Both the position numbers and the translations under genes were made by a program. Shown here one piece after another: positions 2,198 to 39,182 of a stretch of 64,000 nucleotides of DNA. The notes under the pieces are model-generated. The model made no database searches. It saw only the letters and a list, made by a program, of their open reading frames with translations, and was not told the origin of the DNA. Numbering within the stretch: the first letter of the stretch is position 1; every line of letters starts with the position of its first letter. This DNA comes from a virus: IMG/VR virus record IMGVR_UViG_3300047509_000177, positions 1 through 64,000 of that record; one strand, 5' to 3'.

Positions 2198-2427
2198 TAT
2201 TCTTCCTTGGGCTTAGATTCCGCGCAAGGCATGATCTTGTAACTACCAAAGCCAAGCTCATGGTCTAGATCGTTGTACTCCTGCTCTATGAACTTCTCGG
2301 CGGCGGATCGCGCCGAAGTAGCCTCAACACAAGTTCCTTCTTTTCCCCACGTATCTTTACAGCCCACTCGGTGGACCTCAAAATCCCTGTCCTGTTTATT
2401 CAGTGTCTCTATGATTGAGTAAAGCAT
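2197..2427 (-). CDS. Hypothetical protein, 76 aa
   Basis: I place the start at ATG 2427 (MLYSIIETLNKQDRDFEVHR). The in-frame ATG at 2460 would put the tRNA-like hairpin at 2430-2480 inside the gene and has no ribosome-binding site. A GGAGG lies in that hairpin but far from the chosen start, so initiation is uncertain. The protein has two Cys residues in the first half and an acidic and lysine-rich end. No family recognised. Confidence 0.5.
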   Translation of the reverse strand: MLYSIIETLNKQDRDFEVHRVGCKDTWGKEGTCVEATSARSAAEKFIEQEYNDLDHELGFGSYKIMPCAESKPKEE

Positions 2428-2429
2428 AT

Positions 2430-2480
2430 TGGCCGCTAGAGGATTCGATCCTCCACCCATTTCAGGGCAGAAAAGCGGCC
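2430..2480 (-). other. tRNA-like hairpin (7-bp acceptor-type stem plus T-arm-like hairpin)
   Basis: On the minus strand GGCCGCT (2480-2474) pairs perfectly with AGCGGCC (2437-2431), followed by an A like a discriminator base. Inside, GGAGG-ATCGAAT-CCTCT forms a T-arm-like hairpin with the TCGA of a T-loop. Only 19 bases remain for D and anticodon arms, so it cannot be a normal tRNA. It may be a tRNA remnant, a processing signal or a control hairpin ahead of the next gene. Confidence 0.4.
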
Positions 2481-2490
2481 GGGTGATAGC

Positions 2491-2691
2491 TCAGTAAACA
2501 GTAGGTTCAATAAGCTCTGTTATGTCCCCAGTAAGATTATGCTGCTTAGTTGCTTCAGCGCGGACAGCGCGGTTGTGGGTCGTACTAGCAAGGACATTCC
2601 TATTATCCCTGTAGAGCTTGAGAGCTGCTAGCAGGATGGCTTCTTGTTCGGCAGTGATAGAGATTGTCTTTGTGAATTTAGAAGCAATCAT
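2491..2691 (-). CDS. Hypothetical helical protein, 66 aa
   Basis: Starts MIASKFTKTISITAEQEAIL with a good GGAAGG site upstream. It is probably helical (AILLAALKLYRDNR) and ends with ELIEPTVY. No family recognised. It lies between two structured elements (2430-2480 and 2713-2799), which may shape the leftward transcript. Confidence 0.6.
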   Translation of the reverse strand: MIASKFTKTISITAEQEAILLAALKLYRDNRNVLASTTHNRAVRAEATKQHNLTGDITELIEPTVY

Positions 2692-2712
2692 TAGAGCCTT
2701 CCCTTTGTAGAA

Positions 2713-2799
2713 CGATAGAATACTGCATACACCGCTGAGGTTTGACCCTCTGCGCGCTCTGCTCCGCTGGCAGAGCCGCGCGGTGTGGTGGTTCTATCG
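2713..2799 (-). other. Nested inverted repeats, structured element
   Basis: Outer stem CGATAGAA (2713-2720) with TTCTATCG (2792-2799), 8 bp perfect. Inner stem ACACCGC (2729-2735) with GCGGTGT (2780-2786), 7 bp perfect. Inside on the minus strand are GCTCTG...CAGAGC and GAGG-GTCAAA-CCTC hairpins. It lies in the leftward operon between the 47-codon gene and the 66-codon gene. It resembles the 2430-2480 element in layout. It could be a leader RNA, a tRNA relic or a processing site. Confidence 0.5.
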
Positions 2800-2809
2800 G
2801 GAAGTAGTT

Positions 2810-2953
2810 CTAACAGTGATCGTAGATAGACCCGCTTGCACGTAGGTCTGAGCGCTCTGGGCAGCCACAGTCGGAGATATCGTGCGCTGTTTGCTCGCCT
2901 TCGTATAGCTCCAGCTTATCAAGACTTGTTAGATGCTCTTGCTTATAGAACAT
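2810..2953 (-). CDS. Small hypothetical protein, 47 aa
   Basis: ORF from ATG at 2953 to TAG at 2810-2812, with a GGAGAG ribosome-binding site seven bases upstream. The product starts MFYKQEHLTSLDKLELYEGE and carries a Cys-x-Cys and a terminal Cys. It is the first gene after the leftward promoter at 3028-3057. No family recognised. Confidence 0.6.
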   Translation of the reverse strand: MFYKQEHLTSLDKLELYEGEQTAHDISDCGCPERSDLRASGSIYDHC

Positions 2954-3027
2954 TCTTCTCTCCTCGGTCTGTAGAACAGAATTGCTTGAAAAGCATACTA
3001 TCTATCTTCCAGCCCTCCTGCTCTCCT

Positions 3028-3057
3028 AATGTAGCACACTAGCCCATCCGAGTACAA
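3028..3057 (-). promoter_or_regulatory. Leftward promoter, sigma70-like
   Basis: On the minus strand: -35 TTGTAC (3057-3052), an 18-base spacer ending in TGTGC, then -10 TACATT (3033-3028). This nearly repeats the TGTGCTACAAT element of the rightward promoters at 3335, 3638 and 4099. It is well placed to drive the leftward operon that runs to the window edge. Confidence 0.65.
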
Positions 3058-3334
3058 CCCCCTTTGATAGAACATTGAGGCAAACTACTTATTTGCAACA
3101 TATTGATACAATACTTCCATTTTAGAAGATCCATCCAGCTCAGCAGGCGCCAGAATCGGCCGGGTAGAAGATCATTCTCAATCCCCTATAGTTACAAAGC
3201 ACCTTTCCTCCCGGCGAATTCCTGCTGCCCCAACCGAAGGTTCCGGTACCCCGGCCAGGGGGTGCTCGACTTCGGGCTTTTCTGCTGGCATACGGGGTCG
3301 ATCCTAAGTGGCCCACGCCATCACCAAATCGTGC
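3058..3334. other. Intergenic region without a recognised gene
   Basis: This stretch separates the leftward and rightward operons. The left part is AT-rich; 3190-3330 is GC-rich with a short CCCC/GGGG hairpin near 3249-3261. One copy of the dispersed motif is at 3146-3164. Open frames here give compositionally odd proteins without ribosome-binding sites, so I treat it as control or mosaic DNA. Confidence 0.5.
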
Positions 3335-3340
3335 TACAAT
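3335..3340 (+). promoter_or_regulatory. -10 element of a leaderless-type promoter
   Basis: GTGCTACAAT ends at 3340, and the next ATG is at 3348. A transcript starting the usual 6-8 bases after the -10 would begin at or next to that ATG, leaving no leader. No convincing -35 is visible 17-18 bases upstream. Confidence 0.5.
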
Positions 3341-3347
3341 GTAGAAC

Positions 3348-3440
3348 ATGGATATGCTAACTATAATTCAAATTCTTATGATTATATATTTGACTTTTCT
3401 TACAATACTTATTATATATATAATCAAAAGTAGGAAATGA
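3348..3440 (+). CDS. Single-pass membrane microprotein, 30 aa
   Basis: ORF starts MDMLTIIQILMIIYLTFLTI, continues hydrophobic, and ends in a basic IIKSRK tail. This is one membrane segment with a positive C-terminal end. It has no ribosome-binding site but sits 7 bases after a -10 box, consistent with leaderless translation. Function unknown; small membrane proteins of this kind can be holin-like or act on host membranes, but nothing here decides that. Confidence 0.5.
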   Translation: MDMLTIIQILMIIYLTFLTILIIYIIKSRK

Positions 3441-3484
3441 TCTCTAGAATTTGTTCTACAATGTGCTACAAGGAGTTGTTCTAC

Positions 3485-3529
3485 ATGAGAATTGATATAG
3501 ATGAAAAAATATATGAAGAATTGAGGTAG
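3485..3529 (+). pseudogene. Very short ORF, possible broken ribbon-helix-helix gene
   Basis: ATG at 3485 with AGGAG nine bases upstream opens MRIDIDEKIYEELR and stops at TAG. That start resembles the strand and first helix of ribbon-helix-helix proteins. A second short frame follows at once at 3530. Upstream, TTGTTCTACAAT (3451-3462) and TGTGCTACAAG repeat the local promoter motif. It may be a truncated antitoxin-like gene or a leader peptide. Low confidence. Confidence 0.25.
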
Positions 3530-6360: not shown

Positions 6361-6406
6361 AAAACTACTTCACTCGATATTCTCTGTACGGGCATAGGAG
6401 GCCCGC

Positions 6407-6688
6407 GTGAGCGACGAACGGATAGACCCCCAGGTGATCGAGGCGGCAGCGAAGGCGATGTACGCGGCGCTGGGTACTGCGCGTCAGCGCTCTTGGGAGG
6501 TGCTGACAATCAGACAGCGCGAGCCGATGTTGCGGGAAGCTGAGGCTGCTATCCGTGCGGCTGACCGAGAGCGAGGTATTGAGAAGGAATCGCGTCCGAA
6601 CGGTCTTATGAGCCGTGGCACGGACGAACCGTTGGAGCGTTATATCTCGGATTGGCGTCCAGTGGAGCGAGGAAGCGAGGATGTCTGA
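6407..6688 (+). CDS. GC-rich small phage-type protein, 93 aa
   Basis: GTG start with a perfect AGGAGG six bases upstream. Sequence starts MSDERIDPQVIEAAAKAMYA and includes REPMLREAEAAIRAAD, a pattern common in small proteins of actinobacterial phages. Function unknown. Codon use is GC-rich, marking a second mosaic island (about 6.4-6.95 kb). Overlaps the next gene by 8 bases. Confidence 0.6.
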   Translation: MSDERIDPQVIEAAAKAMYAALGTARQRSWEVLTIRQREPMLREAEAAIRAADRERGIEKESRPNGLMSRGTDEPLERYISDWRPVERGSEDV

Positions 6689-6884
6689 CGAGCTATCTGA
6701 GGCCGAGTGCGAGGCGATGGAACGCGAGAGGGCGGTCGCCGTTCGGAGCGGGCGCGGTAGTCGTTTTCAGGATGGTTGGTTTGCTGCCCGCGGCTACTAC
6801 GAAAGTGAGCTTGTCCGGCATATCGGGGCTGCGGCCCAAGCGCGCGAGCAAGCATATGGGGTCGGGCCGGAGCAGTCCTCGTGA
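6681..6884 (+). CDS. GC-rich small phage-type protein, 67 aa
   Basis: Starts MSDELSEAECEAMERERAVA and contains FQDGWFAARGYYESE, a motif shape seen in small actinophage proteins of unknown role. I choose ATG 6681 because it shares the MSDE opening and the compact overlap of its neighbour, and GGAAG lies upstream. It overlaps the next gene's GTG (GTGA). Confidence 0.6.
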   Translation: MSDELSEAECEAMERERAVAVRSGRGSRFQDGWFAARGYYESELVRHIGAAAQAREQAYGVGPEQSS

Positions 6885-7054
6885 GCGCTGAGACGAGCAT
6901 CTGCGACTTCGCGGGCCACGATTTTCAGGACGCCGGAAAAAGAGAAAAGATATTCAAGAAAATCTTTCCAGTTGGGGAATGTAATGGTCGCGCAATATTC
7001 TTTGGAAGTACTAGCTCTAGTTTGAGTCTAGATTACCCAGTATGCTATTATTAG
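6881..7054 (+). CDS. Hypothetical protein, 57 aa, chimeric codon use
   Basis: GTG at 6881 overlaps the previous stop, with GGAG about nine bases upstream. It opens MSAETSICDFAGHDFQDAGK in GC-rich codons and ends in AT-rich codons (STSSSLSLDYPVCYY). As at 5556, the gene crosses the edge of a GC-rich island. It may be a fusion of an incoming gene start with resident sequence. Three Cys residues; no family recognised. Confidence 0.45.
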   Translation: MSAETSICDFAGHDFQDAGKREKIFKKIFPVGECNGRAIFFGSTSSSLSLDYPVCYY

Positions 7055-7209
7055 TTAGAAATTATAGATATATCAAAAATAGAAGATGTTTTATATCTTC
7101 TACAGATGAATATTTTCTGGAATCAGAACGGATAATGAAAAAGGGTAGAGTTAAACGTAATCCTGAATTGCTAGAAATTTTAGAGAAAGAGAAGAGAGAT
7201 GCTACGTAA
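7042..7209 (+). CDS. Hypothetical basic protein, 55 aa
   Basis: Frame from ATG 7042 starts MLLLVRNYRYIKNRRCFISS and ends EKEKRDAT. It overlaps the gene before by 13 bases and the gene after by 11. No good ribosome-binding site, so coupling is needed. Basic and possibly nucleic-acid binding; unrecognised. Confidence 0.4.
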   Translation: MLLLVRNYRYIKNRRCFISSTDEYFLESERIMKKGRVKRNPELLEILEKEKRDAT

Positions 7210-7387
7210 GCAAGCAAGCGTCGTAAAAGGAAAATATTTCGAGTGGGAAAGAGATGAAGGTTCAATGCATCCAGCTACTCAGGCGCAGAAATCGCGCGAA
7301 ATACAATCAGAGCTTTCTCCGATAGGTAAATTAGAGTCTAGATATAATTTACAGTTTATAAGATCTAGAGGATTTAAAGTAGCATGA
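7199..7387 (+). CDS. Hypothetical protein, 62 aa
   Basis: Starts MLRKQASVVKGKYFEWERDE with GAGAAGAG just upstream. Basic and polar. Ends overlapping the next ATG (ATGA). A copy of the dispersed motif lies inside at 7282-7298. No family recognised. Confidence 0.5.
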   Translation: MLRKQASVVKGKYFEWERDEGSMHPATQAQKSREIQSELSPIGKLESRYNLQFIRSRGFKVA

Positions 7388-7800
7388 TTGACATTTTAAT
7401 AAGAGGTGTGCCGGCACAATTTTTTTATGCAACTGATCCTGTGTCGGTATCAAGAATTGGCGATGTTGTACTTTTAACTAAGGAAAAGGAAAATAAGTTT
7501 CAGTGCAGAGTTCCTTGGGTTAACATTTTTGAGGCAAAAGAAATTGAAAGCATTGGAGGTTCGTTATTAGATAGAGGTTTTGATATAATCAGGACAAGAC
7601 TAAACAAATTTGATATTGAAACGTTTGATTCTATAATTGGGATATTTAAAGAAAAAAACATAACTCTATCAATTTTACAAGGTATTGATAAGCTATCTTT
7701 ATGCGTTGTAAACGGGAAGTTTTGTGGATATAAGATGGATTCAGAGGAAATAATTCTTGATTTTGATGTTTTAAAGAGCGAAATGATTTATAATCAGTGA
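7384..7800 (+). CDS. Hypothetical protein, 138 aa
   Basis: Starts MIDILIRGVPAQFFYATDPV. The sequence alternates beta-like and helical stretches and has three Cys residues (CRVPW, LCVVNGKFCGY). It is soluble, with no motif I can name. It is coupled on both sides (ATGA before, TGATG after), so it belongs to the same operon as the LuxR-type regulator. Confidence 0.6.
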   Translation: MIDILIRGVPAQFFYATDPVSVSRIGDVVLLTKEKENKFQCRVPWVNIFEAKEIESIGGSLLDRGFDIIRTRLNKFDIETFDSIIGIFKEKNITLSILQGIDKLSLCVVNGKFCGYKMDSEEIILDFDVLKSEMIYNQ

Positions 7801-8021
7801 TGCAGGACAGAGTTCTTATTATAAATGGTGTTGTATCAACCGATGAGCTATCTAAACTTGGTATAGAAGTAGCAAAAGAATTTTCAGAAGCTGATAAAGT
7901 ATTTATTATAGATATAAAAGGATTTGCTAGACAAGTTAAGTATAGTTGTAAAGAAAATCTATCTAGTGTAAAGTATATAGACGCGAGTGTTATGCGAAGA
8001 AAACAGACGAATCCTGTATAA
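7800..8021 (+). CDS. Hypothetical protein, 73 aa
   Basis: ATG 7800 (MQDRVLIINGVVSTDELSKL) overlaps the previous stop by one base; a GTG one codon earlier is possible. Looks like a small alpha/beta protein with two beta strands (RVLIING and KVFIIDIKG). Function unknown. Confidence 0.55.
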   Translation: MQDRVLIINGVVSTDELSKLGIEVAKEFSEADKVFIIDIKGFARQVKYSCKENLSSVKYIDASVMRRKQTNPV

Positions 8022-8028
8022 TTGAGAG

Positions 8029-8277
8029 GTGGATCAAAAAGCGCTAACAAAACGGCAGGTAGAATTTCTGGCGAAATCAGCGCGCGGGATGACTTATGAG
8101 GAGATAGCAGAAACTTCTTTTGTAACTAAAAATACTGTGATATCTACTTTTTCTTCTGCTAGAAAAAGATTAGGAGCAGAGACCAACACTAAATGTGTTG
8201 TCATGGCAATAGCTCGTGAGGAATTGGGGTTGAGCCATGACGGAATATGTTTCGTTCCGAATTATGAGGAGGAATAA
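8029..8277 (+). CDS. LuxR/GerE-type helix-turn-helix protein, 82 aa
   Basis: GTG start at 8029 is the first start after an in-frame stop. The sequence (starts MDQKALTKRQVEFLAKSARG, then MTYEEIAETSFVTKNTVIST) is a standalone GerE-type HTH: conserved LTxRQ, EIA and the TVxxxxxxARxRLG recognition region. It has no sensor domain, so it is probably a constitutive transcription regulator of phage genes, possibly late genes (inference). It ends at GAGGAGGAATAA, whose AGGAGG could serve the next short frame. Confidence 0.75.
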   Translation: MDQKALTKRQVEFLAKSARGMTYEEIAETSFVTKNTVISTFSSARKRLGAETNTKCVVMAIAREELGLSHDGICFVPNYEEE

Positions 8278-8355
8278 ATTTTAATATTATGTATATTGAT
8301 AATATGGTTAGTAATTCTAGTGTTTATAATTGCTCTTTGTCAAATGGCTAAATAA
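8278..8355 (+). CDS. Possible 25-aa membrane peptide with ATT start
   Basis: Right after the LuxR-type gene, AGGAGG (8267-8272) is five bases before ATT at 8278. This opens ILILCILIIWLVILVFIIAL and ends CQMAK, a perfect single membrane segment. The nearest ATG (8289) is too far from the ribosome-binding site and in another frame. A rare ATT start is needed, so confidence is low. Confidence 0.3.
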   Translation: MLILCILIIWLVILVFIIALCQMAK

Positions 8356-8357
8356 TA

Positions 8358-8393
8358 AAGCCGCCCCCAATTATGAGGGCGGCTTATTTTTTA
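8358..8393. terminator. Bidirectional rho-independent terminator
   Basis: AAGCCGCCC (8358-8366) pairs with GGGCGGCTT (8377-8385) around a 10-base loop, followed by ATTTTTTAT. The minus strand also has a T-rich tail. It lies between convergent genes and should stop transcription from both sides. Confidence 0.9.
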
Positions 8394-8403
8394 TCTATTT
8401 ATA

Positions 8404-8829
8404 CTATCTAAGATATAAGCACGGAGGTATTGTATTTGGCCATGCGCCGGGGTCGATCCGTGACCAAGTGTTGAATATAATTGCTTGCTGCTCGGGGGAA
8501 GCTTCATAGGCATGACGCGCAAATCTACTCCCGCCTTGAGACAGCCAGGTTGAGTTTAGCCAGCTGAAGCCTCCCTCGTATAATCCTTCATTTTGGGCGG
8601 GAGTATCGCGCCAGTGGATTGTGCCGAAGCTTTTGCTTCCGGGAGAACCAGTCTCGTTATTAGCAACACATAGATCAAATAAAGTAATTACTGATCTATG
8701 TCTCTTGTGATGATGATGCTTAACTATATGAATCTTAGGATTCTTTTTAATATATCTTACTGATCTGCTATGTGTAGGAACAGCTATTGAGAATATAGCT
8801 ATTGCTAGGCTGCTTATCAGTGAAACGAT
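8404..8829 (-). CDS. Rpf/transglycosylase-like secreted wall hydrolase, start uncertain
   Basis: A clear coding frame with a signal-peptide-like start (SLISSLAIAIFSIAVPTHS), a basic linker, then CVANNETGSPG...GLYEGGFSWLNSTWLSQGG...QQAIIFNTWSRIDPGAWPN. This matches the resuscitation-promoting-factor/transglycosylase fold, with the Glu of NNETG as likely catalytic acid. The role would be cutting peptidoglycan from outside the membrane. No ATG, GTG or TTG starts the frame. An AGGAGG (8844-8839) lies nine bases before ATC at 8829, my tentative start. An ATG at 8871 is in frame but blocked by TAG at 8859-8857. The SD is inside an ACAGGA/TCCTGT hairpin. Confidence 0.72.
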   Translation of the reverse strand: MVSLISSLAIAIFSIAVPTHSRSVRYIKKNPKIHIVKHHHHKRHRSVITLFDLCVANNETGSPGSKSFGTIHWRDTPAQNEGLYEGGFSWLNSTWLSQGGSRFARHAYEASPEQQAIIFNTWSRIDPGAWPNTIPPCLYLR

Positions 8830-8887
8830 ACAGGAAAACCTCCTGTTTGGTTTTGACTATGCGTTTGTCATAGCCCTAATAGAAAAC

Positions 8888-8925
8888 AAGCCTTCTAAAT
8901 GGGAGGCTTTGTTGTTCTTTTCAAG
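8888..8925 (-). terminator. Leader hairpin with T-rich tails (possible attenuator)
   Basis: AAGCCT (8888-8893) pairs with AGGCTT (8904-8909), with T-rich runs on both strands. On the minus strand it sits in the leader between the promoter at 8962-8990 and the hydrolase gene, followed by TTGTTTTCTATT. It could end leftward transcripts early (attenuation) or stop rightward read-through. Confidence 0.5.
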
Positions 8926-8961
8926 CTTTCAATATCTGAGAGCTTTATGACTGCACCCTAC

Positions 8962-8990
8962 ACAATATCGAACTAGGGGTGGAAAGTCAA
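8962..8990 (-). promoter_or_regulatory. Promoter of the hydrolase gene
   Basis: Minus strand: TTGACT (8990-8985), 17-base spacer, TATTGT (8967-8962). Transcription would start near 8955, giving a leader of about 125 bases with a hairpin and a four-codon leader frame (MTNA-stop at 8871-8857). Confidence 0.65.
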
Positions 8991-9091: not shown

Positions 9092-9337
9092 ATGCCAGCG
9101 CTAGAAACGCCGAGAGGAGCTAGCAAAGCAATTCCGCTGTTTGAAGCGGGCAGATTACGCTGCCCCCATGATAAGCAACTCCATGATCTCTTGTCTTATA
9201 AGCGATTTGATTTGCCTTCGGAATTTGAAACTCAGTTGAATGTTGTTTTAAGATGTGCCTTTTGCAGCCATGTATTCTCTCCACATTTGGATGACGGAGA
9301 GATGAGGCTTATATGTGAGGCTTTTAATGTTAGCTGA
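9092..9337 (+). CDS. Putative zinc-binding protein, 81 aa
   Basis: Starts MPALETPRGASKAIPLFEAG and has LRCPHD near residue 23 and LRCAFCSHVFSPH near 57, a possible C/H...CxxC zinc site. First gene of the rightward head block, overlapping the next by 11 bases. The ribosome-binding site is weak. The upstream 150 bases hold TTGCTA-16-TATAGA-like boxes that could be a promoter. Function unknown. Confidence 0.55.
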   Translation: MPALETPRGASKAIPLFEAGRLRCPHDKQLHDLLSYKRFDLPSEFETQLNVVLRCAFCSHVFSPHLDDGEMRLICEAFNVS

Positions 9338-9842
9338 TATTAAAAAAGCTTCAAACAGAAGAGAAGAAGAAGTTTTTCTTGAAGAGATAGATAAAAGATT
9401 AGATCTTTTGTTAGCTAATTACCAAAGAGTTACTGCGAATCCTAGGTCAATGGGATATTTGAGGTTCTTGCTTCGGCATTATGCCAAATCCCCGACTCCT
9501 TGGAGAGATTGCTACAAAGATAATCTTAAGAGATTCGGGCCAGATAAAACAAAAGGAATATGCTCGGTTCTCAAGGACACACTTAGGCAGAGTACACATT
9601 GGAGGGGCCATCCTGCGGCGGATATAGGTTCGCCAGGAGTTGCAATTGCCGATGCAGATGCGAAAGCTGCTCCTCCTTGGGGAGGTCACCATCACATGTC
9701 TGAGAATAATTTAGATATGGGGCAAATGGCGATGCCTGAAGATATAGCTTTGGTACTAGAAGATCTTGGATCTAAGTGCGATGTATATCGTGTATTAATA
9801 GGGCTCGATGAGCCGCCTTCAGAACTTGGAATAGCGGTATGA
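9327..9842 (+). CDS. Conserved phage head-region protein, 171 aa
   Basis: ATG 9327 (MLADIKKASNRREEEVFLEE) is preferred to GTG 9315 because GTGAGG lies six bases upstream. Residues about 40-95 (RFLLRHYAKSPTPWRDCYKD...ICSVLKDTLRQSTHWRG) match a block I have seen in phage head-region proteins, often next to the prohead protease. The exact function is unknown to me. It ends in an ATGA overlap with the protease gene, supporting a role in head assembly. Confidence 0.6.
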   Translation: MLADIKKASNRREEEVFLEEIDKRLDLLLANYQRVTANPRSMGYLRFLLRHYAKSPTPWRDCYKDNLKRFGPDKTKGICSVLKDTLRQSTHWRGHPAADIGSPGVAIADADAKAAPPWGGHHHMSENNLDMGQMAMPEDIALVLEDLGSKCDVYRVLIGLDEPPSELGIAV

Positions 9843-38843: not shown

Positions 38844-39182
38844 CTAACTTATTATTACTTGATTATGAACAAGCCGCGCAGTAGCAATATAAGTGAGGTT
38901 TCCAATAATGGCTTTGCTGTTATCATAGATTAGTGTGTGCGCTCCAATCTCTGCAACGTGGCAGACGATGGTAACTAATGAGTGTCGGTAACATAATGTC
39001 AGTACGACTGATATTGGTTCATCTAGTTCTGCATTAGCACGGATATCCGTCTTGGCTCGGGCCATCGCCAAGCCAACTACTGGCTTATGTTGAAGCTGTC
39101 TTTTGCGAATAGTTCGAGAATGAGCCGATGCTGGCACAGCAAATACAAGTGATACAAATATAGACAGCATTATCCTCTTCAT
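38844..39182 (-). CDS. Secreted small protein with signal peptide, 112 aa
   Basis: Starts MKRIMLSIFVSLVFAVPASA, a clear signal peptide with AxA cleavage, then a basic stretch and a beta-rich domain with two Cys residues (LTLCYRHSLVTIVCHVAEIG). It would act outside the membrane, perhaps disulphide-linked. It is the only leftward gene among the fibre genes and so has its own control. Phage-encoded secreted proteins can block superinfection, but this is only a possibility. No family name known. Confidence 0.65.
   Translation of the reverse strand: MKRIMLSIFVSLVFAVPASAHSRTIRKRQLQHKPVVGLAMARAKTDIRANAELDEPISVVLTLCYRHSLVTIVCHVAEIGAHTLIYDNSKAIIGNLTYIATARLVHNQVIIS

Follow-up and report, generated by a model that had tools for sequence, protein, structure and literature searches.

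Initiation at codons other than ATG, GTG and TTG and a transcriptional attenuator in front of an rpf gene are both already known, each having been described separately. The infC gene, which starts with ATT in E. coli and with ATC in Streptomyces, is controlled by IF3, and the Streptomyces sigR gene, which has a GTC start behind AGGAGGTG, is repressed by IF3 (PMC5472188). In Listeria, ATA and ATT starts give less translation than ATG (PMC13068326). For mobile elements, AUU initiation is attributed to orfB of IS911 by the work cited in PMC4066793 (Polard et al. 1991; Prere et al. 2011). Rpf enzymes are described as potentially lethal and tightly regulated, and the terminator in the leader of M. 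tuberculosis rpfB is functional in reporter fusions as well as in vitro (PMC6009663). In a non-exhaustive search of the open-access literature, no report turned up in which a family of phage genes retains an AUC, AUU or AUA start, and neither did the combination of such starts across distant phage members with a leader hairpin conserved in one clade.

The window analysed here, the whole stretch of 64,000 nucleotides, corresponds to bases 1-64000 of a 91,381-base viral contig, on which head, tail and replication genes are mostly on the + strand. The locus of interest is on the minus strand, immediately left of the head-gene block. The first-pass annotation, made from the sequence alone, described an intact Rpf/transglycosylase-like frame without a canonical start, and this was borne out: the minus-strand frame 8404-8856 runs through 150 codons without a stop and has no ATG, GTG or TTG. 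From an ATC at 8829 to the TAG at 8406-8404 there are 141 codons, again with no in-frame ATG, GTG or TTG, and the predicted product (8404..8829, minus strand, 141 aa) is a secreted wall hydrolase with a short signal peptide, a His-rich linker and an Rpf-like domain. The terminator scan placed a 12-bp terminator-like hairpin (8358..8385, minus strand) between this gene and the convergent + strand genes.

Three relatives with the same gene order were available: G001 (91,255 bases; locus L004), G002 (93,609 bases; loci L010 and L022) and G003 (21,148 bases; loci L012 and L021), whose head-region proteins were 60-78% identical to those of the window over their best-matching segments. The Rpf type of the enzyme, together with weak matches to Mycobacterium and Rhodococcus phage proteins, does no more than suggest an actinobacterial host. 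The homolog set consisted of seven copies from one viral contig apiece: the window copy, the syntenic genes in L021 and L022, and those on four further contigs (L023, L025, L030 and L031). Database scans using the window hydrolase protein alone, or the terminase, returned no relatives, and two scans of 84,980 bacterial and archaeal species genomes with the hydrolase profiles A5 and A6 found no true one; a match from the genome scans to L037, taken to be an archaeon, was false.

All seven hydrolase frames are intact over 136-163 codons. The six copies outside the window are 38-50% identical to the window copy, and the alignment of the seven has invariant residues at D52 L53 C54 V55 A56 N57, E59, W95, G99, G100 and C137. 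The window copy matched PF06737 at E 4.2e-5 and 24.6 bits, under the curated cut-off of 27 bits, which was exceeded in four homologs (L025, L023, L021 and L022). With hmmsearch, the five-homolog profile A6 matched solved structures of RpfB (E 3.6e-9) and RpfE (6e-5). The intact, conserved frames, the PF06737 matches over the cut-off and the RpfB profile match therefore support a real, functional phage gene for a small exported enzyme, whose muralytic activity would be of the Rpf type. An AlphaFold2 model, as a check on a lysozyme-like fold, was too poor for use (pLDDT 51.9), as was a second AlphaFold model. The codon-usage model gave the window frame a poor score of -12.3, which could reflect recent arrival of the gene.

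The start of this gene was placed by reference to a Shine-Dalgarno sequence (SD). As had been noted from the sequence, an AGGAGG (8844-8839) lies within an ACAGGA/TCCTGT hairpin (8846-8830) and is followed by ATC: the spacer is TTTTCCTGT, and the ATC (8827..8829, minus strand) stands 9 nt past the AGGAGG. With start codons picked by eye at SD distance, an in-frame isoleucine codon (ATC, ATT or ATA, hereafter ATH) was found 7-10 nt past a strong SD in 7/7 homologs: ATC in the window, L021, L023 and L031 (four copies), ATT in L025 and L030 (two) and ATA in L022 (one). An ATC, again at 7-10 nt, is also present in the non-homologous secreted frame that occupies the hydrolase locus in the sister phage G001 (L004). 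By a naive estimate, all 8 loci would have an in-frame ATH at this distance from the SD with a probability of about 6e-8, and the five mutually distant loci with one of 3e-5; both figures ignore part of the shared ancestry. The nearest upstream in-frame stop is 1 codon before the ATT in L030, 4 before the ATA in L022 and 9 before the ATC in the window, which excludes a start much further upstream in these three. The only upstream ATG in the window (8871-8869) is, as first described, soon stopped, with ACA AAC GCA and then TAG (8859-8857) following it. From the ATH codon onward, the residues of the window, L021 and L022 copies can be lined up without gaps (IVSLISSLAIAIFSI, IGLVFVSLTLTALNI and IGLLLVSLTLTAFNI, respectively), and no likeness was seen when the same three were compared upstream of it. 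In the window, L021 and L004, a canonical codon is absent until codon 96 or later, or altogether.

The SD and ATH motif taken by itself is not rarer than chance, with AGGAGG, 8 nt and ATH expected 2.3 times in the 64-kb window by shuffling; the weight therefore rests on the relatives and not on motif counts. An SD-spaced canonical start was present in 42 of the 109 confident genes of two phages; in 2 of the 109 the sole SD-spaced candidate was an ATH, and each of these has an ATG called as its start. In the more distant Rpf-like genes of phages (L032-L035), the start codon is ATG. The ATH-started signal peptides of the window, L021, L022, L004, L025 and L030 copies are without the usual positive charge ahead of the hydrophobic stretch. 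Frameshifting from out-of-frame ATGs near the SD (seen in L004, L023 and L030) was considered and rejected, as their offsets differ and the other members have no such ATG. By comparison across the family, AUH initiation is a well-supported prediction.

The alternative that survives best is that the true start is a downstream TTG or GTG, or else CTG or GTT, with the ATH an ordinary isoleucine codon. Four members (L022, L023, L025 and L030) do have TTG or GTG among their first 9 codons, at codons 4-9; however, these are at least 18 nt from the SD and would shorten the signal peptide, no such codon occurs within the N-terminal 25 codons of the window, L021, L004 and L031 frames, and the ATH alone is common to all at 7-10 nt. 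We therefore regard a downstream start as unlikely.

Upstream of the gene, the promoter scan found a sigma70-like promoter, TTGACT-17-TATTGT (8962..8990, minus strand; score 9/12). Equivalents were found by scan in L022 and L004, and by eye in L021 (TTGACA-17-TAGTGT, whose weak second hexamer left it under the scan threshold); none was found by scan at the L025 locus. Between promoter and gene is the terminator-like leader hairpin that the first-pass annotation had pointed out (8888..8909, minus strand), with AAGCCT/AGGCTT arms and a U-rich tail. The scan scored this hairpin as a terminator on the + strand only, because the sense loop was too long for it; the sense tail is GTTTTCTATT. In the equivalent position, sense-strand terminators were found in L021, L022, L004 and L025, the last having a 10-bp terminator stem immediately ahead of the SD. 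The order of promoter, intrinsic terminator and gene is thus seen, as consensus matches and not as transcripts, in the window, L021, L022 and L004. The recurrence of both elements in these four relatives makes attenuation plausible.

A second leader hairpin is found between the terminator and the SD, at 8855..8875 (minus strand), where GGCTATG-ACAAACG-CATAGTC forms a stem whose arms hold the ATG (8871) and the TAG (8859). The window, L021, L022 and L004 have in common the order TTAGK, a 7-bp stem with the loop ACANNCG, an A-rich stretch, the SD and the ATH. In this set of four related sequences, which is small and has strongly divergent arms, 27/28 cells are paired (96.4%) and 5/7 pairs show changes on both sides; none of 500 shuffles attained the covariation score, and the signal was lost when the partner was slid. 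Since the arms differ so strongly in sequence among the four phages, the element is better explained as an RNA hairpin than as a DNA operator. The pattern occurs once per locus examined in these four phages, and a scan of IMG/VR, with the window record left out, gave 29 matches, among which pairing of 6-7 bp was found only in the three known relatives. No such hairpin was seen in the distant hydrolase homologs.

The SD itself (8839..8844, minus strand) is predicted to be partly paired, with a mean unpaired probability of 0.28, in the hairpin covering it that was found by scan and by folding (ACAGGA/TCCTGT; 8830..8846, minus strand). This exact hairpin is not conserved, and the relatives are predicted to have other SD-pairing structures. 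Predicted accessibility of the SD and start is suggestive and non-uniform. The leader folds of the window, L021, L022, L004 and L025 gave z-scores of -3.0 to -5.1.

Another possibility is that what is conserved is chiefly a short leader RNA of about 60-80 nt, running from promoter to terminator, and that the hydrolase is made by leak only. This would agree with a promoter and terminator that recur around a leader of varying sequence, but the interval between them is unconserved by eye and the protein is conserved. No Rfam family was found above threshold either, Rfam 15 giving only tRNAs in the relatives' loci at the gathering threshold and, by E-value, nothing near the gathering score for the window leader. 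We consider this explanation quite improbable.

The comparison also bears on whether the gene is simply damaged, its normal start having been lost by mutation or assembly error. The absence of a canonical start and the poor codon-usage score of the window copy are what such decay could leave. However, no canonical start stands at the SD in eight contigs, and at 38-50% identity no frame is broken and certain Glu, Cys and Trp residues never vary. The missing start is therefore common to separate contigs with conserved frames, and mutation as its cause, one of the options first raised, finds no support. With an SD and isoleucine codon in seven homologs, and ATC in the non-homologous L004 frame, mutation and sequencing error become very unlikely, as does amber read-through. 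The last of these, translation from the ATG at 8871 through the TAG at 8859 into the hydrolase frame, is hardly credible, for although the ATG is in frame, the TAG is the lone stop between it and the hydrolase frame, and the downstream SKPNRRFSC would supply a positively charged n-region, the two codons are arms of the covarying hairpin and neither is found at that place in the relatives (which have GCGCTG/CAGCGC, TACTGTG/CACAGTA or GGTCACG/CGCGGCC instead), no SD stands at the usual distance from the ATG, and TAG is the stop of 4/26 long genes in the same genome.

The most probable explanation, in which we have fairly good confidence, is that a phage muralytic enzyme is held down by transcription attenuation together with an AUH start against which IF3 discriminates. 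Transcription would begin at the promoter, roughly 100-160 nt upstream of the hydrolase gene, and some transcripts would end at the terminator-like hairpin, about 50 nt past the promoter, unless read-through is permitted. The read-through RNA would bear the conserved hairpin with the ACANNCG loop, a candidate binding site for a regulator, and the strong SD of the hydrolase would be partly folded away. Initiation would then take place at AUC (AUU or AUA in the relatives), which belongs to a class of codons that IF3 disfavours. The likeliest purpose would be to limit a wall enzyme that is harmful to the cell when made early, and the AUH codon shared by all compared homologs suggests that the output of a dangerous enzyme is curbed on purpose and that the codon is not the product of mutation. 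The conserved coding frame, the AUH at the SD-defined start, the covarying hairpin and the recurring promoter and terminator are supported by sequence comparison; attenuation in vivo, IF3 control and the avoidance of premature wall damage are what we infer from them. Attenuation plus a rare start, as the first-pass annotation had proposed, is thus the option favoured by the AUH codons in 7/7 homologs and by a promoter-terminator arrangement recurring in four close relatives. A more elaborate and rather doubtful possibility is a two-level lock, in which a phage factor bound to the ACANNCG hairpin would control read-through or ribosome access, while the AUH start would be opened when infection lowers IF3 discrimination. 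If so, the fidelity of translation initiation would be a timing signal in the phage cycle.

In the sister phage G001, the frame at the hydrolase locus (L004 5537-5974, minus strand) is unrelated and secreted, with the same type of leader hairpin and an ATC start. Its protein showed no homology to the hydrolase by Pfam, PHROG or window-protein search, and had a weak match to PHROG 33758, of unknown function. Reading it as a 3D/Sps protein would mirror the displacement between Rpf and Sps described in PMC1084345, but this likeness, by eye only, was rejected, with PF06725 unmatched in G001 at E 10 and in the Pfam scan. L004 also contains, at 6361-7998, a homolog of the window protein at 9315-9842 that is split by an intein (PF14890, E 6.8e-21), whereas the window copy has none, and, at 2225-3514, a class II aminoacyl-tRNA synthetase (PF00152, E 3.8e-69), lysyl type by eye.

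A second rare start had been suspected next to the hydrolase, where a + strand frame (8278..8355) seemed to need an ATT behind AGGAGG. This frame is present and encodes a 25-aa single-span membrane peptide, with the AGGAGG at 8267-8272 and a 5-nt spacing. Its peptide ILILCILIIWLVILVFIIALCQMAK aligns without gaps to MIIHIAVTIWIIIVFFVFALCKMADKP from L022 (40% identity), the ATT lying opposite the ATG (6437) of the ortholog, whose syntenic place was recovered independently by search (E 0.002). Because of this alignment and the independent match, the window probably has a second rare start, at this ATT; confidence is moderate, given that the conclusion is drawn from one pair of short hydrophobic sequences. 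The micro-protein, which adjoins the hydrolase and has a conserved counterpart in G002, may be a holin-like or toxin-like peptide.

Other frames of this kind were observed. An 88-aa HTH-like frame (L002 3823-4089; G000 67823-68089, + strand) scores well on codon usage and has its first canonical start codon no earlier than codon 65; its ATA, 10 nt behind AGGAG, is a possible further AUH start. In G001, a 76-aa frame without a canonical start (L041, G001:C1:82482-82709, + strand) has an ATT that abuts the preceding TGA, with the SD AAGGAG at 10 nt. Homologs of both were absent in the relatives searched. A lone minus-strand gene (38844-39182) in the + strand tail region of the window starts at ATG, encodes a protein whose beginning resembles a signal peptide, and had no Pfam match.

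If this explanation is correct, ORF callers restricted to ATG, GTG and TTG will miss or shorten such genes, and the hydrolase family would let the role of IF3 fidelity as a regulatory input be tested in natural phages; it would also provide a phage counterpart of the attenuator in the mycobacterial rpfB leader. The enzyme resembles Rpf proteins with PF06737 in its catalytic domain, its secretion and its conserved Glu and C-terminal Cys, but forms a small phage subfamily with a His-rich linker. Like M. tuberculosis rpfB (PMC6009663), it would be an Rpf gene behind a promoter, a structured leader and an intrinsic terminator; however, rpfB is a cellular gene with a TTG start, and the likeness of the leaders noted here is one of arrangement. 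IS911 orfB, as cited in PMC4066793, is likewise a mobile-element gene with an AUU start, but belongs to a frameshifting transposase cassette. In sigR, too, the start is non-canonical, lies behind a very strong SD, is conserved in related genomes and keeps the product low (PMC5472188), whereas that start is GTC and sigR is a cellular sigma factor gene for which an attenuator has not been described. The infC gene is comparable in that its AUH start is kept in relatives and the start codon is the regulatory element (PMC5472188); there, IF3 acts in cellular autoregulation, whereas the phage hydrolase has no known feedback on IF3. As in infC and sigR, a codon other than ATG, GTG or TTG is conserved at the SD-defined start, here AUH in 7/7 homologs.
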